From: Lentisphaerota bacterium
GTDB lineage: Bacteria > Verrucomicrobiota > Kiritimatiellia > PWTM01
NCBI GenBank assembly: GCA_016873715.1
Contig: VGWF01000023.1
Span: forward strand, 1 to 42,675
Reading direction: 5' to 3'
Length of the DNA: 42,675 nt
This document shows positions 2 to 26,871 of the stretch, piece by piece. The notes under the pieces were generated by a model. The model did no database searches and was not told the origin of the DNA. It was given only the letters and a program-made list of their open reading frames with translations. The translations under genes were made by a program, and so were the position numbers. Numbering within the stretch: position 1 is the stretch's first letter; the number at the start of each line of letters is the position of its first letter.

Positions 2-1225
2 GGATTCCACATCGTGCCCGGCCGCGTGATGGGGCAGGACGCGCCGAGCCGGAAGATCGTTATGGGCATGCTCGGCGTCGGCGGCATGGGCGGCGGCAAC
101 ATGGGCAGTTTCCTCGGGATGCCGGATGTCGTCATCCGCGCCGTGTGCGACGTCAACGCCAAGAAGGCCGAGGGGGCGAAGGCGAGCGTGGATGCCCACT
201 ACAAGAACGCCGACTGCGCCGCCTACCGCGACTTCCGCGAGATGATCGCGCGCGGCGATCTCGACGCCGTGATGATCGCGACGCCGGACCACTGGCACGC
301 GACGGCCGGCATCGCGTGCGCGCGGGCGGGGCTGGACGTCTACGGCGAGAAGCCCTTCACGCACGACCTGCGCGAGGGGCGTGCGCTGGTGACGGCGCTG
401 GCGCAGCACGGCCGCGTCTGGCAGACCGGGAGCTGGCAGCGGTCCGTCGGCAACTTCCACAAGGCCGCGACGCTGGTTCGCAACGGGCGGCTCGGACGGG
501 TGCACCTCGTCGAGGTCGGTCTTCCCGGCGGCGGGGGCGGGGCGAAGGACTTCACCCCGCGGCCGCCGCCCCCGGAGCTCGACTGGGACCTCTGGCTGGG
601 ACCCGCGCCGTTCCGCGAGTACCAGGGCGTCTTCGATTGGGACTGGCGCTGGGTGCTCGACTGGGGCGGCGGGCAGATGATGGACTGGATCGGCCATCAC
701 GGCGACATCGCGCAGTGGGGGCTCGGAAGCGACCTCACGGGCCCGGTGGAGTTCGAGGGCCGGGGGGACTTCCGTCCGCGCGGGATCTTCGACTCCCCGG
801 TGAGCTACCGGATCCAGTGCCGCTACGCGAACGGCGTCGCGATGGTCGTCGCCGACGCGGGCCAGCAGCCGAAGGGCATGGGCACGCGCTGGGTGGGCGA
901 CAAGGGGTGGATCTGGGTCGACCGGGGCGGCATCGATGCGGATCCGAAGTCGCTCCTGACCGAGACGGTCGGCGCGGAGGAGCATCGTCTCGAATTCGTC
1001 GGCCACCACCAGGTGAACTTCATCGAGAGCGTGAAGTCGCGGCGGACGACCGTGACGCCGGCCGAGGTGGCGCACCGGTCGGCGAGCATCGGGCACCTCT
1101 GCCAGATCGCGATGCTGACGGGCCGGAAGATCCGGTGGAACCCGGATACGGAGCAGGTTGTGGGCGACTCGGCCGCGGCGGCGCTGCTGGGCCGCGCGCC
1201 CCGCGCGCCGTGGTCCCTGATGTAG
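2..1225 (+). CDS. Gfo/Idh/MocA family oxidoreductase, 5' end cut off by the window
   Basis: NAD(P)-dependent sugar or cyclitol oxidoreductase family. The frame is open to the window edge, and the first residues (GFHIVPGRVMGQDAPS) look like the end of a twin-arginine signal region, as in the intact homologue at 25576-26871. The true start, probably some 25 residues earlier, is therefore outside the window; the GTG at 14 is not a credible start. Visible motifs are the Rossmann loop GVGGMGGGNMG, the aspartate of AVCDVN that would select the cofactor, TPDHWHA, and YGEKPFT with the family's catalytic lysine. The C-terminal half (DWDLWLGPAP, GGGQMMDWIGHHGDI) is the alpha/beta substrate domain; HHGD carries the usual active-site histidine. 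The gene converges on a minus-strand gene with only 9 nt between stop codons. The family is certain; the substrate is not. Confidence 0.93.
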   Translation, partial: GFHIVPGRVMGQDAPSRKIVMGMLGVGGMGGGNMGSFLGMPDVVIRAVCDVNAKKAEGAKASVDAHYKNADCAAYRDFREMIARGDLDAVMIATPDHWHATAGIACARAGLDVYGEKPFTHDLREGRALVTALAQHGRVWQTGSWQRSVGNFHKAATLVRNGRLGRVHLVEVGLPGGGGGAKDFTPRPPPPELDWDLWLGPAPFREYQGVFDWDWRWVLDWGGGQMMDWIGHHGDIAQWGLGSDLTGPVEFEGRGDFRPRGIFDSPVSYRIQCRYANGVAMVVADAGQQPKGMGTRWVGDKGWIWVDRGGIDADPKSLLTETVGAEEHRLEFVGHHQVNFIESVKSRRTTVTPAEVAHRSASIGHLCQIAMLTGRKIRWNPDTEQVVGDSAAAALLGRAPRAPWSLM

Positions 1226-2036: not shown

Positions 2037-3434
2037 TCACTTCTTCGCCTGGGCGGCGCGGGCGTCGTGCTGCGCCCGTTCGGCGAAGCGGCGGCGGGAG
2101 GACTCGGACAGGGTGCTCTGGTTCAGCACGTAGTCGACGGCGGCGGTGCGGTCGCGCCGGTACCATTCCCATGCGACATGCTCCTCGGTCGCGGCGCGGC
2201 GCTTGGTGTCGCTGATGGTCCCGGCCCAGAGCATCGCCTCGACGGGATCGCGGCCGGCGAGCCGCCGGGCGCGGTCGGTGCGGGGGTTGTCGAGCGCCGG
2301 GCTGACGGGCTGCGAGCGGAGCCAGTCGATGCCGGTCTCCGGCTCGTACTGGAGCCAGCGTCCGACGATGCGGTCGAGGATCTTCGCGCTCTGCTGGTCG
2401 GAGGGCAGCTGCGTGTACCACTGCACGGCGGCGCGGGGGTCGACGCGGGCCCAGGACTCGCCCAGCTCGATCTGGGCGGTCAGGCGGTTGTCGGGCATCG
2501 TGTGGGTCTCCATCCACGCCTTGGCGGCGACGGGGTCGTAGCGAGCCCAGTGGTCGATGACGCGGTCGACGGACATGCGGCGCAGGTCGCCGTCGGGCAG
2601 GCTGTCGATCTTGGCCAGGACGGACTCGCGGTCGCGGCCGAAGTGCGTCCACACGATGTCGGCGGCGGCCTCGCCGTACTTCGACGTGTCGAGCTGGTCG
2701 AGGAAGGCCATCGCGGTTTCCGTGTCGGCGGACTTCACCCCTTCGAAGACGTCGCGGATCCGGTAGTCCCCGAGGAATCCGTCGGGATTCATCTCGGCGT
2801 AGACGAGCGCCTGCATCGGCTCCGCCGCGGCCCAGCCGCGGATGGCCTCGTGCTTCAAATCGTGGCGACGCAGCGGTTCGGCGACGGAGCCGATCCACTC
2901 GAGCGCCTTGAGCGGTTCCATCTGGGCCCAGCGGCGCGTGAGGATCGCCTCCGCGCCGGCGCGGGCCGGGCCGGGCTCGAGTTCGCGGATCCGGTCGAGC
3001 GCGGCGCGCACCTCCTCCGCGTTCATGCCGGAGGCTGTCTCGGCGGCGCGGTCGCCGTCGACGGACGCGGGGTCCGCGAATTGCTCGAGGAACTGGTCGA
3101 CCTGGGACCGGGACCGCCCGGTGCGGGGCGTGTAGCGGAGGGGCTGCCCGTCGGATCCGGCGGCGGCCTTGCCGTCGCCCGCGGGGGTGACGACCTTGGA
3201 GGTCGGCGCATCCCAGGTTTCGCCCGCGGCTCCCGGGGCGGCCGTCCCGCCGATGCCCCCTCCGTTCGACGGGCCGTGCCCGTTCCAGCGCCCGAGCGCG
3301 TAGCCGGCGGCCACGCCGACGAGCGATGCCACGATGCCCGTGATCCACGGCGGCGCGGCGCGGGGGGTTCGGGGGCGGGGCGCGGGCGCGGGACCGCGGG
3401 ATCCGGGGCCGGCGGATGTCTGAAGCACGGGCAT
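2037..3434 (-). CDS. Membrane-anchored protein with repeated W-x3-DP-x2-A-x2-W units (hypothetical)
   Basis: A 465-residue protein with no recognised enzyme domain. A basic, proline-rich N-terminus (about residues 1-28) precedes one transmembrane helix (WITGIVASLVGVAAGYALG, about 30-48), then a low-complexity Gly/Pro linker, then a helical region. From about residue 165 to 435 a degenerate motif recurs: RRWAQMEPLKALEW, RGWAAAEPMQALVY, DHWARYDPVAAKAW, ESWARVDPRAAVQW, GRWLQYEPETGIDW, RRLAGRDPVEAMLW and WEWYRRDRTAAVDY. Most copies are 30-35 residues apart, which suggests a TPR-like helical solenoid. The predicted topology is a short cytoplasmic N-terminus with the solenoid in the periplasm. The ATG is preceded by a promoter-like element 6 nt away and by no Shine-Dalgarno, suggesting a leaderless transcript. 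Similar proteins are known to me from Verrucomicrobia-type genomes but have no assigned role. Confidence 0.82.
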   Translation of the reverse strand: MPVLQTSAGPGSRGPAPAPRPRTPRAAPPWITGIVASLVGVAAGYALGRWNGHGPSNGGGIGGTAAPGAAGETWDAPTSKVVTPAGDGKAAAGSDGQPLRYTPRTGRSRSQVDQFLEQFADPASVDGDRAAETASGMNAEEVRAALDRIRELEPGPARAGAEAILTRRWAQMEPLKALEWIGSVAEPLRRHDLKHEAIRGWAAAEPMQALVYAEMNPDGFLGDYRIRDVFEGVKSADTETAMAFLDQLDTSKYGEAAADIVWTHFGRDRESVLAKIDSLPDGDLRRMSVDRVIDHWARYDPVAAKAWMETHTMPDNRLTAQIELGESWARVDPRAAVQWYTQLPSDQQSAKILDRIVGRWLQYEPETGIDWLRSQPVSPALDNPRTDRARRLAGRDPVEAMLWAGTISDTKRRAATEEHVAWEWYRRDRTAAVDYVLNQSTLSESSRRRFAERAQHDARAAQAKK

Positions 3435-3513: not shown

Positions 3514-3934
3514 GAGGACGGGACTGGCGATACGGCCGCGACCACGCGCCGCTTCGCGTCGAGTGGCAGGCAAGGCGCGGCCCTCCAAGTCCGTTCACTG
3601 GAGGAGTCTGGAGGGCGCCGCTCCGTCGGCGCCGTGGTCTAGGTCCATTCCACGGAAATGCGGGAGGACGGGACTGGCGATACGGCCGCGACCACGCGCC
3701 GCTTCGCGTCGAGTGGCAGGCAAGGCGCGGCCCTCCAGGTTTGTTCCTGGAGGAGCCTGGAGGGCGCCGCTCCGTCGGCGCCGTGATCCGGGTTCGTTCC
3801 ATGGAGAGGCGAGAGGACGGGACTGGTGATACGGCCGCGACCACGCGCCGCTTCGCGTCGAGTGGCAGGCAAGGCGCGGCCCTCCAGGTCCGTTCCATGG
3901 AGGAGTCTGGAGGGCGCCGCTCCGTCGGCGCCGT
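3514..3934. repeat. Three tandem copies of a ~121-bp repeat (period 149-150 bp)
   Basis: Core copies lie at 3514-3635, 3664-3784 and 3813-3934. All begin GAGGACGGGACTGG and end CGTCGGCGCCGT, and they are nearly identical over the first 75 bases or so. The 28-bp linkers between cores are less conserved. Each core holds a perfect 7-bp hairpin, GGCGCCG-CTCCGT-CGGCGCC (3614-3633, 3763-3782 and 3913-3932). Each also holds an inverted pair GCCCTCCAG/CTGGAGGGC, which is one base shorter in the first copy. The array fills most of the 585-bp gap between the histidine kinase stop and the W/DP-repeat promoter. A short frame is open across the copies, but only because the repeat lacks stops. It has neither the short uniform repeat nor the unique spacers of a CRISPR. 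The rest of the gap (3469-3513, 3935-4019) shows nothing further. Confidence 0.93.
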
Positions 3935-4019: not shown

Positions 4020-7367
<3,348 letters not shown>

Positions 7368-7405
7368 GCCCTGCCCGACCTTCCGGGCACCTCGATGCGG
7401 TGACT

Positions 7406-8992
7406 CTACTCCACTTTGGCCTTCTTCTCCACGGCCTTCTTCTCCATGGCCTTCCGCTCGGCGGCCGGCGGGGAGGCGGGGCGCTCGATGACCACCGTCC
7501 GGTCGTTCTTCGCCGCGACGCCCGGGGTGCTGCGGCCGCGGTCGACAAGATCCTGGAGGCGCTTCGTCAACCGCGCGACGATCTCGGGGTTGTCGGCGGA
7601 CACGTTGCGCGTCTCGCCGATGTCGGCCTGCAGGTCGAACAGCTGCGCCGGCGGGAGATCCCGCGCCTGGGGGCTGTTGGGGCGCGGGGCCGACCAGCCG
7701 CCGGAGTCGCTGCACAGGGCCAGCTTCCATCGCCCCTCGCGGATCGCGAAGGACCCGTTGATGGAGTGATGGACGGTGGCATCACGGCGGTGGCCGGCGT
7801 CGTCGCCGCGCAGGCAGGGCACGAGGCTGAAACTGTCCTCGCCCGCGCCGTCCGGCACCGCGGCGCCGCTGATCTCCGCGGCGGTGGCGAGCAGGTCGGT
7901 CAGGCAGACGGTCCGATCGCACCGGCTGCCGGGCCGGACGGTGCCGGGCCAGCGGACGAGGAAGGGCACGCGGTGGCCGCCCTCGAAGATGTCGGCCTTC
8001 GTGCCGCGGAAGACGTGGCTCGGGTTGTGCCCCTTCGCGAGAAGGGCCGGGAAATCGGCGGAGGGGGAGCATCCGTTGTCGCTGGTGAAGAGCACCAGCG
8101 TCGAGCCGGCGAGGCCGGTCTCGTCGAGCGCGCGCAGCACCTCGCCGACCGCCGCGTCGGTCTGCGCGGTGAAATCGCCGTAGGGACCGAGGCCGGACTT
8201 CCCCCCGCAATCCGGCGTCGGCACGATCGGCGTGTGCGGGGAGTTGAGCGGCATGTAGAGGAAGAAGGGGCCGCCGGCCCGGGCGCGCTCGCGGATGTGG
8301 GTCACGGCGCGCGTCGTGAGGGCGGGCAGCACGTCGACGGCCTCGAAGTCCGGCGCGGCGGGGCCCGCGCGGATCCACTTCTTCGTCGCGGTCGGCAGCG
8401 CGGTGGGGCGGTCGTTCTCGATGAACACGTAGGGCGGCATGTCGAGCGAGGCGCTGATGCCGTAGTAGAGGTCGAAGCCGGCGGCGTTCGGGCCGTTGCG
8501 GATCGGCGCGGAGTAGTCGACCGATCGCGGGTCGACCTTGGAGTCGATGGCATCGCCGGGGTCGCCGCCGTCGCGGACGGCCCAGGTCATGCCGAGGTGC
8601 CACTTGCCGAAGCACGCCGTGTGATAGCCCCGCGCTTTGAGCAGCGAGGCGACGGTCGCCCGGCCCGGCGCGATCAGCGGGGGGGAGTAGCCACCGAGGA
8701 CCCCGCTGGCGAGGCGCGTGCGCCAGGCGTAGCGGCCGGTGAGGAGCCCGTAGCGCGTTGGGGTGCAGACCGCCGAACCGGAGTGCGCGTCGGTGAAGGC
8801 CATCCCCTGCGCCGCGAGGCGGTCGAGGTTCGGCGTGCGGATCTTCCCGTCCGGGTTGAGCGCCCCGACGTCGCCATAGCCGAGGTCGTCGGCGAGGATG
8901 CAGATGATGTTCGGCGGCGCGGCGCCGTCCGCCGCCGACCCGAGACCACCGGTTGCGATCGCCAGCGCCGCCGCCCACGTCCGTCGGTTCAT
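7406..8992 (-). CDS. Secreted sulfatase of the formylglycine (arylsulfatase) family
   Basis: Hydrolyses sulfate esters, in this setting probably on a polysaccharide, in the periplasm or outside the cell. The 528-residue protein starts with a signal peptide (MNRRTWAAALAIATGG ...) after a strong GGAGGAG site. Metal-binding Asp35-Asp36 are in ILADDLGYGD. The C-T-P-T-R motif at 76-80 holds the cysteine converted to formylglycine (Cys-type). KWHLG, the SPHTP histidine and SDNG supply the remaining active-site residues of the family. The C-terminus is short and lysine/alanine-rich (AMEKKAVEKKAKVE). Cys-type sulfatases need a formylglycine-generating enzyme, which is not in this window. The gene is transcribed divergently from the radical SAM gene, with its own promoter, and is followed by the histidine kinase. 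Confidence 0.95.
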   Translation of the reverse strand: MNRRTWAAALAIATGGLGSAADGAAPPNIICILADDLGYGDVGALNPDGKIRTPNLDRLAAQGMAFTDAHSGSAVCTPTRYGLLTGRYAWRTRLASGVLGGYSPPLIAPGRATVASLLKARGYHTACFGKWHLGMTWAVRDGGDPGDAIDSKVDPRSVDYSAPIRNGPNAAGFDLYYGISASLDMPPYVFIENDRPTALPTATKKWIRAGPAAPDFEAVDVLPALTTRAVTHIRERARAGGPFFLYMPLNSPHTPIVPTPDCGGKSGLGPYGDFTAQTDAAVGEVLRALDETGLAGSTLVLFTSDNGCSPSADFPALLAKGHNPSHVFRGTKADIFEGGHRVPFLVRWPGTVRPGSRCDRTVCLTDLLATAAEISGAAVPDGAGEDSFSLVPCLRGDDAGHRRDATVHHSINGSFAIREGRWKLALCSDSGGWSAPRPNSPQARDLPPAQLFDLQADIGETRNVSADNPEIVARLTKRLQDLVDRGRSTPGVAAKNDRTVVIERPASPPAAERKAMEKKAVEKKAKVE

Positions 8993-9104: not shown

Positions 9105-10322
9105 GTGGATGTCGAACGCAAGATCGAGGTGCTGGCGGGCGCCGCGAAGTACGACGTCTCCTGCGCGTCGAGCGGGAGCCGCCGCGCCGGCGAGGGAACC
9201 GGCAACGCGTCGGTCGGCGGGATCTGCCACAGCTGGTCGGACGACGGCCGGTGCATCTCGCTGCTCAAGATCCTCTTCTCGAATCACTGCATCTACGACT
9301 GCGCCTACTGCGCGAACCGCGCGAGCAACCCGGTCCCGCGCGCGAGCTTCACGGTCGACGAGGTCGTCCGCCTGACGATGGAGTTCTACCGCCGCAACTA
9401 CATCGAGGGGCTCTTCCTCAGTTCGGGGGTCGTCCGCAGCCCGGACCACACGATGGAGGAACTCGTCCGCGTCGTCGAACGGCTGCGGGTCGACGAGCGG
9501 TTCCACGGCTACATCCATCTGAAGGCGATCCCCGGCGCGAGCCCCGACCTGGTCCGCCGCGCGGGGCTGGCGGTGGACCGCCTCAGCGTCAACATCGAGC
9601 TGCCGTCCGAGGTCTCGCTCCGGCGGCTGGCGCCGGAGAAGTCGAAGGACGACATCCTCCGCCCGATGGCCTCGATCGCGGGCGGCATCGTCGAGAGCCG
9701 GGCGGAGCGCCGCCGCCACCGCTCGGCGCCGGCCTATGCGCCCGCCGGCCAGAGCACTCAGCTGATCGTCGGCGCATCGCCCGAGGACGACCGCCGCATC
9801 CTCGACCTCGCGCACGGCCTCTACCGGAAGTTCGGCCTCAAGCGCGTCTACTACTCCGCGTACGTGCCCGTGAACCCGGACCCGCTCCTGCCGCCGCCCG
9901 AGGGCCCGCCCGACATCCTGCGCGAGCACCGGCTCTACCAGGCCGACTGGCTCGTCCGCCTCTACGGCTTCGCGCCGGCCGAGATCGTCGACGACGCCCG
10001 CCCGAACCTCGACCGCGCCGTCGACCCCAAGACCGCCTGGGCGCTCCGCCATCCCGAGCGGTTCCCGGTCGAGGTCAACCGGGCGGACCGCGACACGCTC
10101 CTCCGCGTGCCCGGCATCGGCTTCAAGTCCGCCGCGCGCATCCTCGCCACGCGCCGCTTCGCCGCGCTTCGCGCCGAGGACCTGGCCCCGCTGGGGATCG
10201 TGCTGCGCCGCGCCCATGCCTTCCTCACCTGCGGAGGACGCCGCGTCCTGCCGCCGCCCCCGCGCGCGGTGGCCGTCGACGACCGGCAGCCGGAGCTCTT
10301 CGCCGCCGGGTGCTGCCCGTAG
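9105..10322 (+). CDS. Putative DNA modification/repair radical SAM protein (TIGR03916-type)
   Basis: A 405-residue radical SAM protein of the family annotated as 'putative DNA modification/repair radical SAM protein'; it is distantly related to spore photoproduct lyase. The [4Fe-4S]-binding cysteines are Cys62, Cys66 and Cys69 in HCIYDCAYC. The N-terminal signature KYDVSCASSG and GICHSW ... GRCISLLKIL are typical of the family. A helix-hairpin-helix (DTLLRVPGIGFKSAARIL) near the C-terminus supports DNA binding. The GTG at 9105 is chosen because the family N-terminus begins just there (DVERKIEVLAGAAKYD); upstream in-frame sequence is not family-like. Only 22 nt separate it from the DUF4130 gene, its usual genomic partner. 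The reaction is unknown. Confidence 0.93.
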   Translation: MDVERKIEVLAGAAKYDVSCASSGSRRAGEGTGNASVGGICHSWSDDGRCISLLKILFSNHCIYDCAYCANRASNPVPRASFTVDEVVRLTMEFYRRNYIEGLFLSSGVVRSPDHTMEELVRVVERLRVDERFHGYIHLKAIPGASPDLVRRAGLAVDRLSVNIELPSEVSLRRLAPEKSKDDILRPMASIAGGIVESRAERRRHRSAPAYAPAGQSTQLIVGASPEDDRRILDLAHGLYRKFGLKRVYYSAYVPVNPDPLLPPPEGPPDILREHRLYQADWLVRLYGFAPAEIVDDARPNLDRAVDPKTAWALRHPERFPVEVNRADRDTLLRVPGIGFKSAARILATRRFAALRAEDLAPLGIVLRRAHAFLTCGGRRVLPPPPRAVAVDDRQPELFAAGCCP

Positions 10323-10344
10323 GCCCTCGCGGCGGACATCCCCC

Positions 10345-11139
10345 ATGGGCGCCACGGTTCCCCAGCGGTTCCTCCACGACGGATCGACCGACTCGATGCT
10401 GGCCGCCATCGCCCGCGCGATCGCGTCGGGGCGCCCCGCCGCCGTCGCCCCGGCCGCGGAGGGCTCGCTCTTTGCGGAGGACGGGGAGCCGGTGCCGGCC
10501 GACCCGGCGGCGGCCGACGCGCTGCTCGGACGGATCGGCCGGGACCTGGGCGGCGACTGGGTGCGGCGGATCTTGCGCCTGCTGTGTTCGGAGGAGGACG
10601 GGGCGGAGGACGTGGCCTTCCGAGCCCTCGCGCTGGCCTTCGCGCGCGGGGCCGGGGTCATGGGTTTCCACGCCAACCCCGACGTCCGCCGGGCGAATGC
10701 CATCGATCGTCGCGTGGCCGGCGAGGTTCACCGGCTGAAGGGTCTGCTGCGCTTCCGCCGTCTCGCCTCCGGCCGCCTGTGGGGGCCGGTCGAGCCCCGT
10801 CACAACGTGGTCGCCATGGTGGCGCCCCATTTCGGCCGGCGGCTGGGCGCCGAGCGGTGGCTGATCCACGACGCCGTCCGCGGCTTCGGCGCGGCCGGGG
10901 AGCCGGGGGGCGCCGTGCGGCCCTGCGATGCCGCCGCGGTCGAGGCGGAACTCCGGGGCGGGCTCGATGCGTCCGAGACCGACTACCAGGGGCTCTGGCG
11001 CACGTACTTCGACGCCATCGCCATCCGGACCCGGTCCAACCCGCGGGCGCAGCGCCGCGCCATGCCCGCGCGCTACTGGGCCTGCCTCGTCGAGCGCCCC
11101 GGCGGCCCCGGCGGGGCGCCCCGTCCGGCCTCGAAATAG
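10345..11139 (+). CDS. DUF4130 / TIGR03915-type putative DNA metabolism protein
   Basis: A 264-residue cytoplasmic protein of the family that is almost always encoded beside the radical SAM protein above. Family features seen are the early FLHDGSTDSMLAAIARAI, the central EVHRLKGLLRFRRL, the PRHNVVAMVAPHFGRRL stretch with ERWLIHDAVR after it, and the C-terminal NPRAQRRAMPARYW. From general knowledge, in other bacteria this domain is often fused to a UdgX-type uracil-DNA glycosylase; that domain is absent here, so the protein is the stand-alone form. No enzymatic residues are established. Co-transcription with the preceding gene is likely. The family call is firm; the function is not known. Confidence 0.88.
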   Translation: MGATVPQRFLHDGSTDSMLAAIARAIASGRPAAVAPAAEGSLFAEDGEPVPADPAAADALLGRIGRDLGGDWVRRILRLLCSEEDGAEDVAFRALALAFARGAGVMGFHANPDVRRANAIDRRVAGEVHRLKGLLRFRRLASGRLWGPVEPRHNVVAMVAPHFGRRLGAERWLIHDAVRGFGAAGEPGGAVRPCDAAAVEAELRGGLDASETDYQGLWRTYFDAIAIRTRSNPRAQRRAMPARYWACLVERPGGPGGAPRPASK

Positions 11140-11249: not shown

Positions 11250-13289
11250 ATGAAGGACATGCCGGTTGCCAATGTTCGGAATCTTGCGTTCTTGGGACAT
11301 ACGGGAAGCGGGAAGACGGCCCTGCTGGATGCGCTCCTGTTCAAGGCGGGCCTGAACGACCGGAAGGGGTCGCCCGAGAACGGCACGAGCATGGCCGACT
11401 GGACCGACGAGGAGAAGGACCGCAAGATCTCCGTCTGGGCCAAGCCCTTCGACCTGGCCTTCAAGGTTGCCTCCGGCGCCCGGCACCGCCTGGTGGTCAC
11501 CGACACCCCCGGGTACGCGGACTTCGTCGGCCAGATGCTCTGCGCGCTCTCGGTCGCCGACGCCGGCCTGGTCTTCGTCGATGCGACCTCCGGCCTCCAG
11601 GTGGGCGCGACCCGCGCGTGGCGCCAGTGCGAGAAGGCCTCGATACCGCGCGGCATCGTGATCTCCGGCATCGACAAGGACAATGCCGACTTCGACGGCG
11701 TGCTGACCGCGATCCAGTCCGTGTGGGGCGCGCGGTGCGTTCCGGTGACCGTGCCCGTGCCGGGAAACGCATCGGTCGTCGACGTGCTCGGGCCGGCCGC
11801 GGTGCCGGGCGATCTCGCCGCGACGGTGGAGCAGCTCAAGACGCAGCTCGTCGAAGCCGCCGCGGAAAGCAACGACGCCCTGATGGAGAAGTACCTCGGG
11901 GGCGAGGCGCTGACGGCGGAGGAGATCGCCGGCGGCCTGCGCGAGTCCGTGCGCGCGGCGAAGCTCGTCCCCGTGTTCGCCGCCTCGGCGAAGACCGACG
12001 CCGGCCTGCCCGAACTGCTGGAGGGGATCGTCCGGCTCCTCCCGTCGCCCGCCGACCGCAAGGTCCGCGCCGCCGACGGCGCGGAGGTCGATCCGTCCCC
12101 GACCGCCCCGTTCGCGGGGTACGTCTGGCGCACGATCTCCGATCCGTTCGTCGGCCAGCTCAGCCTCTGCCGCGTCTTCGGCGGGACGATGAAGGGCGAG
12201 GGCGAGATCTACAACGTCACGAAGGGCGCCAAGGAGCGCATCGGCGGCCTGATCGTCCTCAACGGCAAGAAGCAGGAGACCGTGACCGAGGCGCATGCCG
12301 GCGACATCGTCGCGCTGGCGAAGCTGAAGAGCACGGGCTTCAACGACACGCTCGGCGCCGCGGGGGCCACGGTGACGTTCCCGCCCGTCGCGCTGCCGAA
12401 CCCGGTCATGGCCTACGCCGTGACGCCCAAGACGCAGGGCGACGACGACAAGATGATGGGCGGCCTGCACCGCGTGGCGGAGGAGGATCCGACCCTCCGG
12501 CTCGAGCGCAACGCCGAGACCCACGAGGTGATCCTGTCGGGCATGGGCGACGCGGAGATCAACGTCGCCGTCGACAAGATGCGCAAGCACAGCAAGGTCG
12601 AGGTGAACCTCACGACGCCGAAGGTCGCCTACAAGGAGACCGTGACGGGCCGCGGCGAGGGGCACTACAAGCACAAGAAGCAGACCGGTGGCCGCGGCCA
12701 GTACGGCGAGGTCTACCTGCGCGTCGAGCCGAAGCAGCCCGACGAGCCGGACTGGTTCGTCAACGCGGTGGTCGGCGGCACGATCCCCGGGAACTTCATC
12801 CCCGCCGTGCAGAAGGGCCTGGTCGAGGGCATGACGCGCGGCCCGCTGGCCGGTTCGCCGGTCGTCAACGTGAAGGTCGTCGTCTACGACGGCTCCTACC
12901 ACGATGTCGATTCGTCGGAGATCGCGTTCAAGATCGCCGGCGCCCGGGCGCTCAAGGAGGGCATGCTCAAGAGCAAGCCCGTGCTGCTCGAGCCGATCAT
13001 GAAGGTGCGCGTGATGATCCCCGACCAGTGCATGGGCGACGTCACCGGCGACCTGAACCACCGTCGCGGCCGGATCCTGGGCATGGACACCGAGGACGGC
13101 ATGCAGGTGCTCACCGCGGACATCCCGCAGGCGGAGCTGTTCCAGTATTCGTCGCAACTGCGCAGCATGACCGGCGGCCGCGGCACGTTCGAGATGGAGT
13201 TCTCCCGCCTGGAGGTCGTCCCCTCGAATATCGCGCAGAAGATCGTCGCCGAGGCGCAGAAGAACAAGCAGGACGAGCACGAAGAGTAA
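11250..13289 (+). CDS. Elongation factor G-like GTPase (EF-G2 type, fusA paralogue)
   Basis: A 679-residue translational GTPase with the full EF-G domain order: G domain, beta-barrel domain II, then domains III-V (GRGEGHYKHKKQTGGRGQYGEV ... MTGGRGTFEMEFSRLE). The P-loop is intact (GHTGSGKT, residues 16-23) and so is G3 (DTPGY, 85-89). Switch I has RKISVW where classical EF-G has RGITI, so the conserved threonine is missing. G4 reads SGIDKD instead of NKMDR, losing Asn and Lys. Both changes fit the EF-G2/EF-G-like subgroup rather than canonical EF-G, so a specialised or altered translocation role is likely, and another gene probably encodes the housekeeping factor. Start chosen at 11250 on the basis of GAGGAG; an in-frame GTG lies 6 nt upstream. 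First gene of the cluster reaching 16706. Confidence 0.88.
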   Translation: MKDMPVANVRNLAFLGHTGSGKTALLDALLFKAGLNDRKGSPENGTSMADWTDEEKDRKISVWAKPFDLAFKVASGARHRLVVTDTPGYADFVGQMLCALSVADAGLVFVDATSGLQVGATRAWRQCEKASIPRGIVISGIDKDNADFDGVLTAIQSVWGARCVPVTVPVPGNASVVDVLGPAAVPGDLAATVEQLKTQLVEAAAESNDALMEKYLGGEALTAEEIAGGLRESVRAAKLVPVFAASAKTDAGLPELLEGIVRLLPSPADRKVRAADGAEVDPSPTAPFAGYVWRTISDPFVGQLSLCRVFGGTMKGEGEIYNVTKGAKERIGGLIVLNGKKQETVTEAHAGDIVALAKLKSTGFNDTLGAAGATVTFPPVALPNPVMAYAVTPKTQGDDDKMMGGLHRVAEEDPTLRLERNAETHEVILSGMGDAEINVAVDKMRKHSKVEVNLTTPKVAYKETVTGRGEGHYKHKKQTGGRGQYGEVYLRVEPKQPDEPDWFVNAVVGGTIPGNFIPAVQKGLVEGMTRGPLAGSPVVNVKVVVYDGSYHDVDSSEIAFKIAGARALKEGMLKSKPVLLEPIMKVRVMIPDQCMGDVTGDLNHRRGRILGMDTEDGMQVLTADIPQAELFQYSSQLRSMTGGRGTFEMEFSRLEVVPSNIAQKIVAEAQKNKQDEHEE

Positions 13290-13364
13290 TCTCAACGCGC
13301 CTCGTGGAAGGTGTGGGTCCGGCGGGACGGCGCAGGGGCGCCTCCCCCCGGCGAAAGGAGTGAC

Positions 13365-14117
13365 ATGAGCGGGCACAGCAAGTGGGCAACCATCAAGCAC
13401 AAGAAGGCGGCGACCGACGCCAAGCGCGGCAAGATCTTCAGCAAGATCGCCCGCGAGATCACCATCTGCGTCAAGCAGGGCGGCGGGGATCCGTCGGCGA
13501 ACATCACGTTGCGGGCCCTGATCCAGAAGGGCAAGGCCGCGAACATGCCGGCCGACAACATCGACCGCGCGATCAAGAAGGGCACCGGCGAACTCGATGA
13601 CGGGGTCCAGCTCGAGGAGATCGTCTACGAGGGGTTCGCGGGCGGCGGCATCGGCGTCATCGTGCAGGTCCTGACCGACAACAAGAACCGGTCGGCCGCC
13701 GAGGTCCGGCACATCTTCACGCGCAACAACGTCAACCTGGGCGCCCAGGGCAGCGTCAGCCGCGGCTTCAAGCGCAAGGGCGTGATCCGCGTCGACGCAT
13801 CGAAGGTCGCGGAGGACCGGCTGATGGAGGTCGCGCTCGACGCCGGCGCCGAGGACATGCAGCCCGAGGACGCGCAGTTCGTCGTCACGACCGATCCGCC
13901 GACCTACCCGAAGGTCGTCGAGGCGCTGGCGAAGGCGAACATCCCGGCCGAGGAGTCGGAGGTCACGCTCGTGCCCGACCTCTGGGTGAGCGTGTCCGAT
14001 CCGCATGTCGCGAAGGAAGTGATGCGCTTCGTCGAGGCGCTCGAGGACCTCGACGACGTCCAGAACGTCCACACGAACATGGACGTGGACGAGTCGATCC
14101 TCAAGGACCTGGAGTAG
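13365..14117 (+). CDS. yebC: YebC/PmpR family regulatory protein
   Basis: A 250-residue protein of the widespread YebC/TACO1 family, of full usual length. It begins with the diagnostic MSGHSKWATIKHKKAATDAK, and the three-domain architecture is complete (GKAANMPADNIDRAIKKGTG; YEGFAGGGIGVIVQ; the acidic C-terminal part). Members have been described as transcriptional regulators and, more recently, as factors that help ribosomes through difficult sequences such as proline runs. Its place directly after an EF-G-like gene would suit a translation role, but that is inference. AAAGGAG lies just upstream of the ATG. It is followed 14 nt later by ruvC, a common arrangement in bacteria. Confidence 0.97.
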   Translation: MSGHSKWATIKHKKAATDAKRGKIFSKIAREITICVKQGGGDPSANITLRALIQKGKAANMPADNIDRAIKKGTGELDDGVQLEEIVYEGFAGGGIGVIVQVLTDNKNRSAAEVRHIFTRNNVNLGAQGSVSRGFKRKGVIRVDASKVAEDRLMEVALDAGAEDMQPEDAQFVVTTDPPTYPKVVEALAKANIPAEESEVTLVPDLWVSVSDPHVAKEVMRFVEALEDLDDVQNVHTNMDVDESILKDLE

Positions 14118-15561: not shown

Positions 15562-15578
15562 GCCGCGGAGCGCGGACC

Positions 15579-16706
15579 GTGACCATCCTCAACCGATACG
15601 TCGCCGGCGGCTTCCTGCTGATCTTCGGGATGGCCGTCGCGGTGTTCGCGTTCGTGATGGGCATCGGCTCCGTGATCAAGCTGGTCGACCTGGTCGCGCG
15701 CGGCGTGTCGGCGCCCGCGCTGCTCCGCTACTTCGCCCTCAGCTTCCCGTTCATCCTCCAGTACGCGATCCCGATGAGCGTGATGACCGCGACGCTGCTC
15801 CTCTTCACGCGGCTGTCGATGGACGGCGAGATCTCGGCGATGAAGGCGTGCGGCATGAGCCTGTGGCAGATCGTCGCCCCCGTCGTCATGGCGGCGGCCC
15901 TGATCTCGGGGGTGTCGCTCTACATCAGCAACTGGCTCTCGCCGGAGAGCCGCTTCGCCCAGCGCCGGATGGTCAACGAGTTCTCGAAGGAGGATCCGCT
16001 GCTGCTGGTCGAGCAGGGGCGGTGGATCCGCGGGGTCCCGAACCTGATGGTCTACATCGGCTCGAAGAAGGGGACCAACCTCTCGGACATCGTGATCTAC
16101 CAGTACGACGAGAACACGATGCGGACCAGCATCCGCGCGCGGGCCGGGACGGTCGGCGTCTCCGCCGACGGCCGGGAACTGGTGGTGGACATGGTCGACG
16201 TGCGCATGGAGCAGCCCGACCGCAAGGACCCGGCCAACCCGGCGAAGGCCCAGATCATGGTCGCCGAGTACTATCCGCAGCGGATCGACATCGCCGCGCG
16301 CCGGCAGGCCTCCACGCTCAACAAGCGGCCGCGGGACATGACGCTGCCGGAACTCATGGTGGCCTACCGGAACGCGGCCGCCCCGTACCTCGGGCTGGAA
16401 CTGCCGCCGGAGACGGTGCGCGACGACCGGATGAAGACGCTGGTCGAGATCAACAGCCGCATGGCGATGTCGTTCTCGTGCTTCGCCATGACCCTGATCG
16501 GCATCCCGCTCGGCATGCGGTCGAAGCGGCGCGAGTCGTCCATCGGCGTGCTCATGAGCCTGCTGGTGATCTTCTGCTTCTACCTGTTCGTCATGGTGGC
16601 GAAATCGATGGCCGGGAACCCGGCTCTCCATCCGGATCTCTTCGTCTGGATCCCGGTCGTCGCCGCCGAGGCGGGCGGCCTCTGGCTGATCCGCCGGATG
16701 AGCTGA
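15579..16706 (+). CDS. LptF/LptG family lipopolysaccharide export permease
   Basis: Inner-membrane permease of the LPS transport ABC complex (LptB2FG). The 375-residue protein has the family topology. There are three N-terminal helices (GGFLLIFGMAVAVFAFVMGI; YFALSFPFILQYAIPMSVM; IVAPVVMAAALISGVSLY), a large periplasmic beta-rich region (about 110-280), and three C-terminal helices (FAMTLIGIPLGM; VLMSLLVIFCFYLFVMV; LFVWIPVVAAEAGGLWL). The MDGEISAMKACGMS loop is the typical cytoplasmic coupling segment. I cannot tell LptF from LptG. The GTG at 15579 is chosen because GGAG lies 8 nt upstream and the protein then begins just before the first helix. Its presence supports a diderm, LPS-bearing organism. 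Last gene of the co-directional cluster. Confidence 0.92.
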   Translation: MTILNRYVAGGFLLIFGMAVAVFAFVMGIGSVIKLVDLVARGVSAPALLRYFALSFPFILQYAIPMSVMTATLLLFTRLSMDGEISAMKACGMSLWQIVAPVVMAAALISGVSLYISNWLSPESRFAQRRMVNEFSKEDPLLLVEQGRWIRGVPNLMVYIGSKKGTNLSDIVIYQYDENTMRTSIRARAGTVGVSADGRELVVDMVDVRMEQPDRKDPANPAKAQIMVAEYYPQRIDIAARRQASTLNKRPRDMTLPELMVAYRNAAAPYLGLELPPETVRDDRMKTLVEINSRMAMSFSCFAMTLIGIPLGMRSKRRESSIGVLMSLLVIFCFYLFVMVAKSMAGNPALHPDLFVWIPVVAAEAGGLWLIRRMS

Positions 16707-18373: not shown

Positions 18374-19795
18374 ATGACAAGGCAGTCGGCGGTTTCGCGT
18401 CGGACGTTTCTTCGGGGCTCCGCGCTGGCGGCGGGCGCGCTCGCCATGTACGGGTGCGCGTCGACCGGGCCGTCCGCGCGGTTCCGCAAGGCCGGCGAGG
18501 TGCTGAACCTCGGCGTGATCGGGGTCGGCGGACAGGGGCGCACCAACTGGACCGCGATGCTGGAATGCGGCGGCACGCGCATCGCCGCCCTGTGCGACGT
18601 CGACGCGACCGCGCTCGCCGACGCCGCGGCGTGGTACGCGGAGAAGGGGCGCAAGGCCGACTTCGCGACCTACGCCGACTACCGGGCGATGCTGGAGACC
18701 GAGACGACCCTCGACGCCGTCGTCGTCTCCACCCCGGATCACACCCACGCCCGCGCCGCGATCCAGGCGATGCGGCGCGGCTGCCACGTCTACGTGGAGA
18801 AGCCGCTGGTGCGGACGATCGGCGAGGCGCGGCGCTTCGCCGGGGTCGCGCGCGAGGCCGGGGTCGTCACCCAGATGGGCAACCACGGCAGCGCGATGGA
18901 CGGCACCCGCCGCGGCATCGAGATCCTCCGCTCGGGCCTCCTCGGCAACGTGACCGAGGTCCACGTATGGACGAACCGCCCCGAGATCTCGCCGGGCAAT
19001 CCGTGGGGCTGGAAGCAGCCCCTGAAGCGCCCCGAGGGCTCCGACCCGGTTCCGCCGGAGCTCAGCTGGGACCTGTGGCTCGGCACGGCGCCCGCGCGGC
19101 CGTTCCGGAAGGGCGCCTACCACCGGATCGCCTGGCGCGCGTTCCACGACTTCGGCACCGGCGCGTTCGGCGACATGGCCTGCCACACGATGAATCTCGC
19201 GTTCCGCGGGCTCGACCTGGGCACGGTCCTCTCGGCCGAGGCCGTGGAGATCTCGGAGCGCTACGACGACACCTACCCGCAGTACAGCACGGTGCGCCTG
19301 ACCTACGCCGCGCGCGGCGCCCGCCCGCCGGTGGACCTCGTCTGGTACGACGGCTACCGCAAGCCGGCCGCGGAGATCATGCCGCAGGTCCTCGCCACGC
19401 TCGGCCAGGTTCCGACCACCGGGTGCTACATCGTCGGCGACCGGGGGGCGCTGGTGAACACCGACGACTACGGCCAGGTCAGCTACCTCGCGCTGAAGGG
19501 CGAGGCGAAGATGATGGCCCTCTCGAAGCACGCCGCGTGCGTCGCCGTCCCGGTCTCGCTTCCGCGCGCGGCGGACCAGAACCAGCGCCGCGAGTTCGTC
19601 GATGCGTGCTTCGGGCGCGTGCGCACGACGTCCGGCATCGACCATTCGATCCCGCTGGTCGAGAGCATGCTCGTCGGCTGCATCGCGCAGCGGGTGCCGG
19701 GCCGCCTCGCGTGGGACGCCGCGGCGGGCCGGTTCGACAACGCGCAGGCGAACGCGCTGCTCGATCCGCCGGCGCGGACGGGCTGGGAGTACTGA
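18374..19795 (+). CDS. Gfo/Idh/MocA family oxidoreductase with twin-arginine/lipoprotein-like signal
   Basis: A 473-residue NAD(P)-dependent oxidoreductase of the family acting on sugars, cyclitols and derivatives. The N-terminus carries SRRTFLRGS followed by a hydrophobic stretch ending in MYGCAS, consistent with Tat export of a pre-folded cofactor-bound enzyme and possibly lipidation at Cys. The Rossmann loop is GVIGVGGQGRTNW; then CDVDAT, STPDHTHA and YVEKPLV (catalytic lysine). ACHTMN supplies the active-site histidine of the C-terminal domain. It belongs to a different subgroup from the other three copies in this window. GGAGGAGAAGG precedes the ATG. The next gene follows after 57 nt. 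Confidence 0.93.
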   Translation: MTRQSAVSRRTFLRGSALAAGALAMYGCASTGPSARFRKAGEVLNLGVIGVGGQGRTNWTAMLECGGTRIAALCDVDATALADAAAWYAEKGRKADFATYADYRAMLETETTLDAVVVSTPDHTHARAAIQAMRRGCHVYVEKPLVRTIGEARRFAGVAREAGVVTQMGNHGSAMDGTRRGIEILRSGLLGNVTEVHVWTNRPEISPGNPWGWKQPLKRPEGSDPVPPELSWDLWLGTAPARPFRKGAYHRIAWRAFHDFGTGAFGDMACHTMNLAFRGLDLGTVLSAEAVEISERYDDTYPQYSTVRLTYAARGARPPVDLVWYDGYRKPAAEIMPQVLATLGQVPTTGCYIVGDRGALVNTDDYGQVSYLALKGEAKMMALSKHAACVAVPVSLPRAADQNQRREFVDACFGRVRTTSGIDHSIPLVESMLVGCIAQRVPGRLAWDAAAGRFDNAQANALLDPPARTGWEY

Positions 19796-22938: not shown

Positions 22939-23028
22939 ACGGCGCCGACGGAACGGCGCCCTCCACGTCCTGACTCTCGCGTTTCCATGGATCCGGTCCG
23001 GAGGGCCGCGCGCCGTTGCGGCCGTATC
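22939..23028 (-). repeat. Eroded, inverted fourth copy of the 3514-3934 repeat
   Basis: Reading the top strand, ACGGCGCCGACGGAACGGCG matches the reverse complement of the array core with one difference. It continues with GCCCTCCA, a TCCATGGA block, GGAGGGCCGCG and TGCGGCCGTATC. About 40 bases of the core (the CTTGCCTGCCACTCGACGCG part) are missing. The 7-bp hairpin is perfect (22941-22947 with 22954-22960) although its loop sequence has changed. It sits 67 bp downstream of proS, in the 309-bp gap before the next gene. The remainder of that gap holds only the promoter and leader frame described separately. Confidence 0.8.
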
Positions 23029-23184: not shown

Positions 23185-24533
23185 CCGTTCGCCGACGCGA
23201 GTTCCTTCGTTCCGCGGCCCTTTCCGTTGCGGCGTTCCGCACGCTCCGCGTCGTCGGCGCGGAGTCGCCCGCCAAGAAGTACCGGACCGCGCTGGTCGGG
23301 TGCGGCTGGTGGGGCAACAACATCCTGCGCGAGGCGATGGCGGCGGGCGCGTCGACGATCGTCGGCCTGTGCGACGTCGACCGCCGGGCGCTGGCCTCGA
23401 CGCGGGAGAAGGTGAAGAAGGACTGCGGCGACGAGCCGAAGACCTACGCGGACTACCGGGACCTGCTGGCGAAGGAGAGCCCGGAGATCGTGATCGTGGG
23501 CACGCCGGACCACTGGCACGCGCTGCCGACGATCGCCGCGGTCGCGGCGGGCGCTCACGTCTACGTCGAGAAGCCGGTCGGCCACACGATCGGCGAGGGC
23601 GCCGCCATGGTGAAGGCGGCCCGCGCGGCCAACCGCGTCGTCCAGGTCGGCACGCACCGGCGCATCTCGCCGCACAACGTCTCGGCGCGCGAGTTCGTCC
23701 AGACGGGGAAGCTCGGGAAGATCGGCATGGTGCGGACCTTCGTGCTCTACGGCGGCGGCGGACCCGAGAAGCCGCGGAAGAACGTCGAGCCGCCGGCGGA
23801 GGTGGACTGGGACTTCTGGTGCGGGCCCGCGCCGATGCGGCCGTTCAACGGCAGCCCGGACAACCCGTGGGGCGGGGGAATCCACCCGCGCGGGTTCCGC
23901 CAGTACCTCGACTACGCCAACGGCACGCTCGGCGACTGGGGCGTCCACTGGCTCGACCAGGTGCTCTGGATTACGGGCGAGAAATGGCCGCGGAAGGTCT
24001 TCTCGACCGGCGGGCGGCCGATCAAGGGGCCGCCGGTGCTGACGAAGGACGAGCAGACCTCCGACGCGCCGGACCACCAGGTGGCGACCTACGAATTCGA
24101 CGGGATGACCGTACAGTGGGAGCACCGGGGGTTCGCCGGGAACAACGCGGAGAAGGGCGAGAACGTCGGCTGCTACTTCTACGGCACCGAGGGCACCCTC
24201 CACGTCGGCTGGCAGAAGGGGTGGGTGTTCCATCCGTCCGACTCGAAGAAGCCCGAGGTCCGGTGCGAGGCGCAGCTCAACCTGCCCGACCACCAGAACA
24301 TCCGCGAGCTGTGGGCCGACTTCCTCGGCGCGATCCGCGAGGGCCGCCGCCCGGTGTGCGACATCGAGGAGATCCACCGGGCGACCAACCTGAGCCTGCT
24401 GGGCATGCTCTCGATGAAGCTCGGGCGCAGCGTCGCGTGGGACGGCGCGAAAGACCAGATCCTCAACGACCCCGACGCGAACCGGCTGCTCCGCCGGGAG
24501 TACCGGGGGCCCTGGAAGTACCCCGAGGTCTAG
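23181..24533 (+). CDS. Gfo/Idh/MocA family oxidoreductase
   Basis: A 450-residue NAD(P)-dependent oxidoreductase of the sugar/cyclitol family. The N-terminus VRRREFLRSAALSVAAF is a twin-arginine-type signal. The Rossmann loop GCGWWGNNIL, the cofactor aspartate in LCDVD, the TPDHWHALP loop and YVEKPVG with the catalytic lysine are present. GDWGVHWLDQV in the C-terminal domain carries the active-site histidine. DWDFWCGPAPM is the typical link to the substrate domain. The ATG overlaps a short upstream frame (ATGA). The downstream prepilin-like gene is about 170 nt away. Confidence 0.94.
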   Translation: MTVRRREFLRSAALSVAAFRTLRVVGAESPAKKYRTALVGCGWWGNNILREAMAAGASTIVGLCDVDRRALASTREKVKKDCGDEPKTYADYRDLLAKESPEIVIVGTPDHWHALPTIAAVAAGAHVYVEKPVGHTIGEGAAMVKAARAANRVVQVGTHRRISPHNVSAREFVQTGKLGKIGMVRTFVLYGGGGPEKPRKNVEPPAEVDWDFWCGPAPMRPFNGSPDNPWGGGIHPRGFRQYLDYANGTLGDWGVHWLDQVLWITGEKWPRKVFSTGGRPIKGPPVLTKDEQTSDAPDHQVATYEFDGMTVQWEHRGFAGNNAEKGENVGCYFYGTEGTLHVGWQKGWVFHPSDSKKPEVRCEAQLNLPDHQNIRELWADFLGAIREGRRPVCDIEEIHRATNLSLLGMLSMKLGRSVAWDGAKDQILNDPDANRLLRREYRGPWKYPEV

Positions 24534-25575: not shown

Positions 25576-26871
25576 ATGAACACCCAACGATGGAATCGAC
25601 GTGCGTTTCTGGGTGCCGCCGCGCGGGGCGCTGCCGCGGCCGCGTTCCCGGCGATCGTGCCGGCGTCGGTGCTCGGCCAGAACGCGCCGTCCAACCGGAT
25701 CACCATGGGCCTGATCGGCATGGGCCTGATGATGGGCGGGCACCTCCGGGGCATGTGCGGACGGCCCGACGTCCAGGTGCTGGCGGTCTGCGACGTCGAT
25801 CGCGGCCGGCGCGACCGCGCGCGAGGGGCGGTGGAATCGGCCTACGCCGAGGCGAAGGCCTCGGGCACGTGGAAGGGGTGCGAGGCGGCGCACGAGTTCG
25901 AGCGCGTGGTCGGCCGGGCCGACCTCGATGCCGTCCTGATCTGCACGCCCGACCACTGGCACGCGCCGATCACCTGCGCCGCGATCCGCGCCGGCAAGGA
26001 CGTCTACGTGCAGAAGCCGATGACGCTGACCATGCGCGAGGGCCGCGTGCTGAGCGACCTGGCCCGCGCGACGGGCGCCATCGTGCAGGTCGGTTCGCAG
26101 CAGCGGTCGGAACGGGCCTTCCGGCGCGCCTGCGAGATCGTCCGCAACGGGTGGATCGGCCGGGTGCACAAGATCTACGCCCGCCTCGGCGAGTTTTCAC
26201 CGCCCGCCTCGCTGCCGGAGCAGCCGGTTCCCGAGGGGTTCGACTACGACCGCTGGCTCGGGCCGACGCCGTGGTTCCCGTACAACGAGGAACGCGTGAA
26301 GGGCAACTACGGCGGAGGCTGGCGCCGCTTCTGGGAGTACGGGTCGCGCAAGAACGGCGACTGGGGCGCCCACCACTTCGACATCGTCCAGTGGGCGCTG
26401 GGCATGGACGCGTCGGGCCCCGTGCAGTTCATCCCGAAGGGATTCGACGGCGCGGAGCACCAGACCCACGTCTACGCGGACGGGACCAAGGTGCTGCGCG
26501 ACCATCCGACGCGCGACGGACACATGATCCAGTTCATCGGCACGGAGGGCGAGGTGTGCGTCAGCCGCGGCGACCGGCTGGACACCGTCCCCGCGGACCT
26601 GAAGGACCGCTCGCCGGGACCGGGGGACATCCGGCTCTACGAGTCGCGGAACCACGAGGAAGACTGGATCCAGTGCATCCGCACCCGCCGCGACCCGATC
26701 TGCGGACCGGAGATCGGCCATCGCACGGCGACGATCTGCTGCCTCTCGGGAATCGCCGAGCGCCTGGGCCGCCCCCTCCGGTGGGACCCGGCGAAGGAGG
26801 ACATCGTGGACGATCCGGCCGCCTCGCGCTGGCTGGACCGGCCGCGACGGGCGCCGTACGTGATGCTGTAG
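25576..26871 (+). CDS. Gfo/Idh/MocA family oxidoreductase with Tat signal
   Basis: A 431-residue oxidoreductase. The N-terminus NRRAFLGAAARGAAAAAFPAI is a twin-arginine-type signal, and VPASVLGQNAPSNRI marks the junction to the mature domain. Two deviations are visible. The cofactor loop reads GLIGMGLMMGGHL, so the third glycine of GxGxxG is displaced, and the signature is YVQKPMT with Gln in place of Glu beside the catalytic lysine. The Glu-to-Gln change is common in the Tat-exported PVC subgroup. NGDWGAHHFDIV carries the active-site histidines, and YDRWLGPTPW is the domain linker. GGAGG precedes the ATG. It resembles the truncated gene at 2-1225 most closely of the copies here. The HEAT-repeat gene follows 44 nt later. 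Confidence 0.95.
   Translation: MNTQRWNRRAFLGAAARGAAAAAFPAIVPASVLGQNAPSNRITMGLIGMGLMMGGHLRGMCGRPDVQVLAVCDVDRGRRDRARGAVESAYAEAKASGTWKGCEAAHEFERVVGRADLDAVLICTPDHWHAPITCAAIRAGKDVYVQKPMTLTMREGRVLSDLARATGAIVQVGSQQRSERAFRRACEIVRNGWIGRVHKIYARLGEFSPPASLPEQPVPEGFDYDRWLGPTPWFPYNEERVKGNYGGGWRRFWEYGSRKNGDWGAHHFDIVQWALGMDASGPVQFIPKGFDGAEHQTHVYADGTKVLRDHPTRDGHMIQFIGTEGEVCVSRGDRLDTVPADLKDRSPGPGDIRLYESRNHEEDWIQCIRTRRDPICGPEIGHRTATICCLSGIAERLGRPLRWDPAKEDIVDDPAASRWLDRPRRAPYVML

Follow-up and report, generated by a model that had tools for sequence, protein, structure and literature searches.

GGAG-tagged hairpin repeats in a Lentisphaerota bacterium resemble a REP/BIME-RAYT system

The window – the whole 42,675-nucleotide stretch analysed, contig 23 of a 5.13 Mb Lentisphaerota genome in 289 contigs – contains three 121-bp cores (3514-3634, 3664-3784, and 3814-3934) that start 150 and 149 bp apart. 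They are 95% identical, with every pair matching at 116 of 122 aligned columns, and the linkers between them match at only 19 of 30. A preliminary description, made from the window sequence, reported this 149-150 bp period and the contrast between diverged linkers and conserved cores, together with a shortened, inverted fourth copy at 22939-23028, all of which we confirm. It also placed the array downstream of a histidine kinase gene; more precisely, the array sits between co-directional genes, facing the 3′ end of a CHASE/PAS/HisKA/HATPase/receiver histidine kinase gene (4020-7730, minus strand) and lying upstream of a 465-aa open reading frame with no Pfam match (2037-3434, minus strand). 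An Rfam scan of the window matched no family. Similar dispersed stretches with a TPDHWHA-like reading are also present in the window (243-379, 18729-18829, 23464-23600, and 25907-26043), and are probably several Gfo/Idh/MocA-type oxidoreductase paralogues.

Each core contains two GGAG-tagged hairpins in opposite orientation, and these hairpins, rather than the 121-bp core, are the natural unit. The earlier reading was right that the repeat is real, and missed both the tagged hairpins and a transposase gene that they flank elsewhere in the genome. The general form is 5′-GGAG, a 7-bp stem, a CTCCGT-type loop, and the 3′ side of the stem. The plus-strand hairpin (type B; GGAG GGCGCCG CTCCGT CGGCGCC) occurs at 3610-3633, 3759-3782, and 3909-3932, and the minus-strand hairpin (type A; GGAG GGCCGCG, a 35-nt loop, and CGCGGCC) at 3534-3586 (its tag seen as CTCC at 3583-3586), 3684-3736, and 3833-3885. 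The 35-nt loop is the usual 6-nt loop expanded by 29 nt, and the expanded-loop palindrome occurs 24 times in the genome. Expanded and short forms are both present in an array on contig 173, and this and a related array on contig 73 have a period of 120 bp, equal to 149 minus 29. The distant copy in the window is the same A/B dimer in inverted orientation, with type B on the minus strand (22941-22964; loop TTCCGT) and type A on the plus strand (23000-23023; loop CGCCGT and one stem mismatch); it is short because its type A hairpin lacks the 29-nt expansion, having a loop of 6 rather than 35 nt. The window therefore holds one three-unit BIME array, with units of approximately 149 bp (3514-3934), and one isolated dimer.

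Pairing within the stems is maintained among copies that differ in sequence. Arms left free in the search pattern GGAGGG-N5-CTCCGT-N5-CC are almost perfectly self-complementary and vary by compensatory change: in a set of 57 distinct sites, drawn from the genome and its relatives, 93.2% of cells are paired compared with 65.0% in shuffled and 33-54% in slid controls, and double-sided changes number 103 against 31 in the shuffled set. Folded whole as single-stranded DNA, the 121-nt core is no better than its shuffles (z −0.36), so the argument rests on the hairpin covariation. The preliminary description had suggested that the core was either selected or recently copied. This is partly right, but recent copying alone falls short, because stem complementarity, loop, and tag are all kept across copies with different stems.

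The tag is conserved even where the search leaves it free. In 1.0 Mb of the genome, 135 distinct perfect hairpins with a CTCYGT loop were found without using the tag; all begin with GG, 130 carry GGAG, and none carries GTAG. All hairpins with a 7-bp stem and 6-nt loop in 1.0 Mb of DNA, both strands counted, amount to 765 distributed over 388 loop sequences, and no loop other than CTCCGT, CTCTGT, and their complements occurs more than eight times. Two further candidate features were rejected. Pairing of the GGAG tag with the CTCC of the loop fits CTCCGT and is not general, since relatives keep GGAG with GCC, GCT, GTC, TACC, and TGCCAC loops. A CT dinucleotide preceding the tag, considered as a cleavage site, is frequent in this genome (115 of 177 sites, against a background of 4.5%) but present at only 14 of 104 sites in relatives, and so probably reflects shared descent.

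The hairpins are numerous and predominantly extragenic. A BLASTN-type search of the genome gave 84 matches on many contigs, and the pattern above matches exactly at 197 sites, its reversed form at none, which, together with the covariation, accords with the definition of REPs as short hairpin-forming palindromes in more than 100 copies. Of 64 clusters, 51 lie outside predicted coding sequences, although these cover 72% of the bases (509 genes from a simple codon-usage caller, approximate and missing some genes). The guess of a dispersed REP/MITE-like family, which dozens of intergenic copies were to support, was correct in its REP-like part, with approximately 200 exact copies. Intergenic GC-rich hairpins, which in the window follow immediately on the histidine kinase gene, could instead be host elements for transcription termination or mRNA 3′-end protection, their number reflecting selection at gene ends rather than mobility. 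We consider this unlikely. By the same simple gene calls no preference for gene ends or terminators is seen, as gaps with sites (29 tandem, 9 convergent, and 5 divergent) follow the background of 181, 57, and 48; the copies listed have no T-run after the stem; and such a role leaves unexplained the strand-specific 5′ tag, the heterotypic inverted pairs, and the flanking of RAYT genes described below.

Among neighbouring sites (within 250 bp), tags face inward in 46 pairs and outward in 33, and a further 31 pairs are in tandem; isolated inverted dimers have their tags inside in 12 of 14 instances. Inverted neighbours share a stem in only 2 of 79 pairs (permutation mean 24.9, with none of 2000 permutations as low), and tandem neighbours share it in 30 of 31. 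Because array units are copies of one another, the count per cluster is the fairer measure, and 27 of 29 clusters are fully heterotypic. Relatives show about 25 heterotypic and 3 homotypic inverted pairs within approximately 100 bp, counted by eye from the pairs listed. Dimers occur in several different stem combinations, and the alternating orientation and regular spacing of BIMEs are seen on contigs 20, 43, 63, 73, and 139, among others, as well as in the window.

The near-identity of the window units, which are in register, and the presence of other arrays with periods of 120, 171, 184-195, 81, and 99 bp raise the question of whether a transposase made the array at all. Replication slippage or unequal recombination may have duplicated the unit locally, the dispersed hairpins still being REPs, and this ordinary origin is a serious contender, if not the account we favour. 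It covers array growth alone, accounting neither for the scatter of dimers across dozens of contigs nor for the flanking of RAYT genes, and is compatible with transposase-driven mobility as its last step. Contigs 73 and 173 both end inside similar BIME arrays, where the assembly was probably broken by the repeats, and the copy numbers are thus probably lower bounds.

A candidate transposase is encoded on contig 147 (7059-7526). The 156-aa product is a RAYT of the HUH/Tyr type, with the motifs DHVHLF and YSEKWEYVRRNPVRAG / YSEKWEYVRRNPVRAGL providing the HUH motif and the catalytic tyrosine of the Y1 fold. It scores 81.4 bits against NCBIfam NF047646 (REP_Tyr_transpos; cut-off 80), and its only PDB match is TnpAREP 4er8 (E=6e-5), relative to which the catalytic region and W94, Q95, and R104 are kept and the position of H101 is occupied by T. 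The gene is bordered by inverted GGAG hairpins at 7011 (plus strand) and 7564 (minus strand), with stems GGCGCCG and GGGCACG and tags facing outward. Dispersed inverted-repeat units of 60-150 bp might also be MITEs dependent on a conventional (DDE) transposase, one since lost or not recognised. This is highly improbable: the unit consists of two tagged hairpins rather than long terminal inverted repeats, the stems of inverted partners differ in 77 of 79 pairs, and an HUH/Tyr transposase gene lies between two of these hairpins.

The genome contains seven RAYT-like matches in all, and a related one on contig 35 lies among GGAG hairpins with a different loop, TGCCAC, which form a second family of 35 exact sites. 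Stem GGCGCCG is found with both loops, so it is the loop and not the stem that separates the families; in this genome, loops CTCCGT and TGCCAC mark families tied to different RAYTs. Tandem arrays of TGCCAC-loop hairpins are present on contigs 101 (10051-10702) and 107 (12569-13390), with periods of approximately 125 and 88-89 bp. On contig 35 (8335-8755; L163), REPs have apparently captured between them two fragments resembling the 3′ part of the RAYT gene, an arrangement described for rayt-adjacent BIMEs by Nunvar et al. 2010. Contig 27 has a Y1_Tnp-like match (15577-15864; L009; 27.7 bits) in an open reading frame unlike those of RAYTs, and an overlapping frame gives a repeated ISGPTGTSPVGAR-type peptide, indicating that the surrounding DNA is repetitive.

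The family is also present in relatives, in keeping with the earlier view of it as dispersed. Within the class, 141 of the 288 genomes analysed contain the hairpin pattern, with up to 170 sites in one relative and near-zero controls. Genomes with at least 10 sites (37 of 288) encode a RAYT in 33 cases, compared with 139 of the other 251 (Fisher p 5e-5), and RAYT genes flanked by GGAG hairpins are present in relatives. The named relatives are Kiritimatiellae, Lentisphaerae, Victivallis, Opitutus, and Chthoniobacter, as well as single MAGs assigned to Fermentibacteria and Latescibacterota. Loci L033 and L062, and likewise L040 and L066, agree in RAYT identity and flanks, from which the class is probably Kiritimatiellia.

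Among 113 RAYT loci, 57 are clearly linked to GGAG and 15 to GTAG, the latter mostly being more distant Verrucomicrobia RAYTs; the reversed-tag control of this survey is invalid, as GGAGG contains GAGG. Residue 101 is H in 14 of the 15 RAYTs linked to GTAG, and 49 of the 52 linked to GGAG have T or R there. This possible covariation corresponds to only about two changes of tag on the RAYT tree, a quick tree with many open branches, too few for a statistical test. At one locus in a genome of the same family (L049, genome G046), a RAYT gene with an in-frame stop has GTAG-tagged hairpins with TT loops approximately 280 bp downstream, possibly representing a tag switch or a second REP family.

What was observed here – the anatomy of the hairpins and their covariation, the conserved tag and loop, the number of copies, the bias towards intergenic DNA, the RAYT genes flanked by REPs, and the spread among taxa – argues strongly that the repeats are a REP/BIME-RAYT system with a GGAG tag. 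Binding, cleavage, and mobilisation by the single-strand transposase are inferred. RAYT action is the best-supported mechanism, and could proceed as follows. Each REP is a 5′-GGAG tag followed by a hairpin with a 7-bp GC-rich stem and 6-nt CTCCGT or variant loop, and two REPs with different stems, opposite orientation, and facing tags form a dimer, which in the window is amplified in tandem to three units. Tagged hairpins exposed in single-stranded DNA, on the lagging-strand template or during repair, would be bound strand-specifically by the RAYT, with loop and tag as recognition features, a stem that need only pair, and the tag guiding the nick. Strand transfer after nicking would scatter dimers into intergenic DNA, and arrays may grow by RAYT-primed or slippage amplification. 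Several findings count against this reading: the GT(A/G)G head that defines published REP families is absent, the whole core folds no better than shuffles, and tags face inward in the dimers but outward around RAYT genes, which leaves the mobile unit ambiguous. Among the class genomes drawn, none of them of the same genus, neither an empty-site pair nor a transposition event was observed.

A broader proposal is more tentative, and we give it slightly less than an even chance. These elements may constitute a separate large REP/RAYT branch with a GGAG guide, whose centre lies in Kiritimatiellia and other PVC bacteria and which extends to MAGs assigned to further phyla. Family identity would lie in the loop, with several loop types per genome each having its own RAYT; the stem would be free as long as inverted partners do not share it; and residue 101 of the transposase, H in GTAG-linked and T or R in GGAG-linked RAYTs, would take part in reading the tag. 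Descriptions of REPs rest mostly on GTAG-tagged proteobacterial hairpins, and a branch whose RAYTs use a different guide, and in whose natural families tag, loop, and stem can be told apart, would offer a ready comparison for how these transposases read a folded single strand and choose the nick. A repeat at which assemblies of such MAGs probably break, as at the ends of contigs 73 and 173, also gains a name.

The closest parallel is the REP/BIME-TnpAREP (RAYT) system of E. coli, which shares a 5′ tetranucleotide tag and hairpin, an alternation of distinct stem types in opposite orientation, variants with an expanded loop, intergenic tandem arrays, and a RAYT gene bordered by REPs. It differs in that the tag here is GGAG and not GTAG, the 7-bp stems are perfect and lack the E. 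coli bulge, the 6-nt loop CTCCGT is largely fixed, and the RAYT has 156 aa with T at the H101 position. The group 3 TnpAREP/REP systems of Stenotrophomonas and Marinomonas (PMC8266576) have similarly perfect stems and extra N-terminal transposase residues, and their loop bases are essential for recognition; the loop is conserved here and, in agreement with that work, separates the two families, and the GGAG tag and 6-nt loop are differences. The REPINs of Pseudomonas fluorescens (PMC3116915) likewise combine two inverted REPs in extragenic DNA and are linked to a RAYT, but their partners are copies of one sequence that fold on each other, whereas stems differ in 77 of 79 inverted pairs here; the heterotypic pairs fit E. 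coli-type BIMEs rather than inverted doublets of the same REP. The GTAG and CGTC super-families (PMC3733652) – known from the PVC superphylum, including GTAG-20 of Opitutus terrae (Verrucomicrobia) – share short hairpins that carry a tag, dimers whose tags may face inward or outward, and alternative complementary stems, and the GTAG super-family alone shares the association with a tyrosine transposase. With GGAG on 130 of 135 hairpins and a transposase link, the present family has neither the GT(A/G)G head of the former nor the CGTC terminal tag and lack of transposase linkage of the latter. Published heads are GT(A/G)G (PMC2817692), GT[AG]G (PMC6006769), and GTAG with degenerate variants or CGTC (PMC3733652); the main-text tags of the last (GTAG, GYAG, GYRG, GTRG, GTMG, GTGG, and CGTC) exclude GGAG, which was not found in the main texts of the REP/RAYT literature searched, so that priority is not certain. 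Relative to the described families, the differences are the GGAG tag, and inverted partners that share tag and loop but, unlike those of REPINs, almost never the stem.
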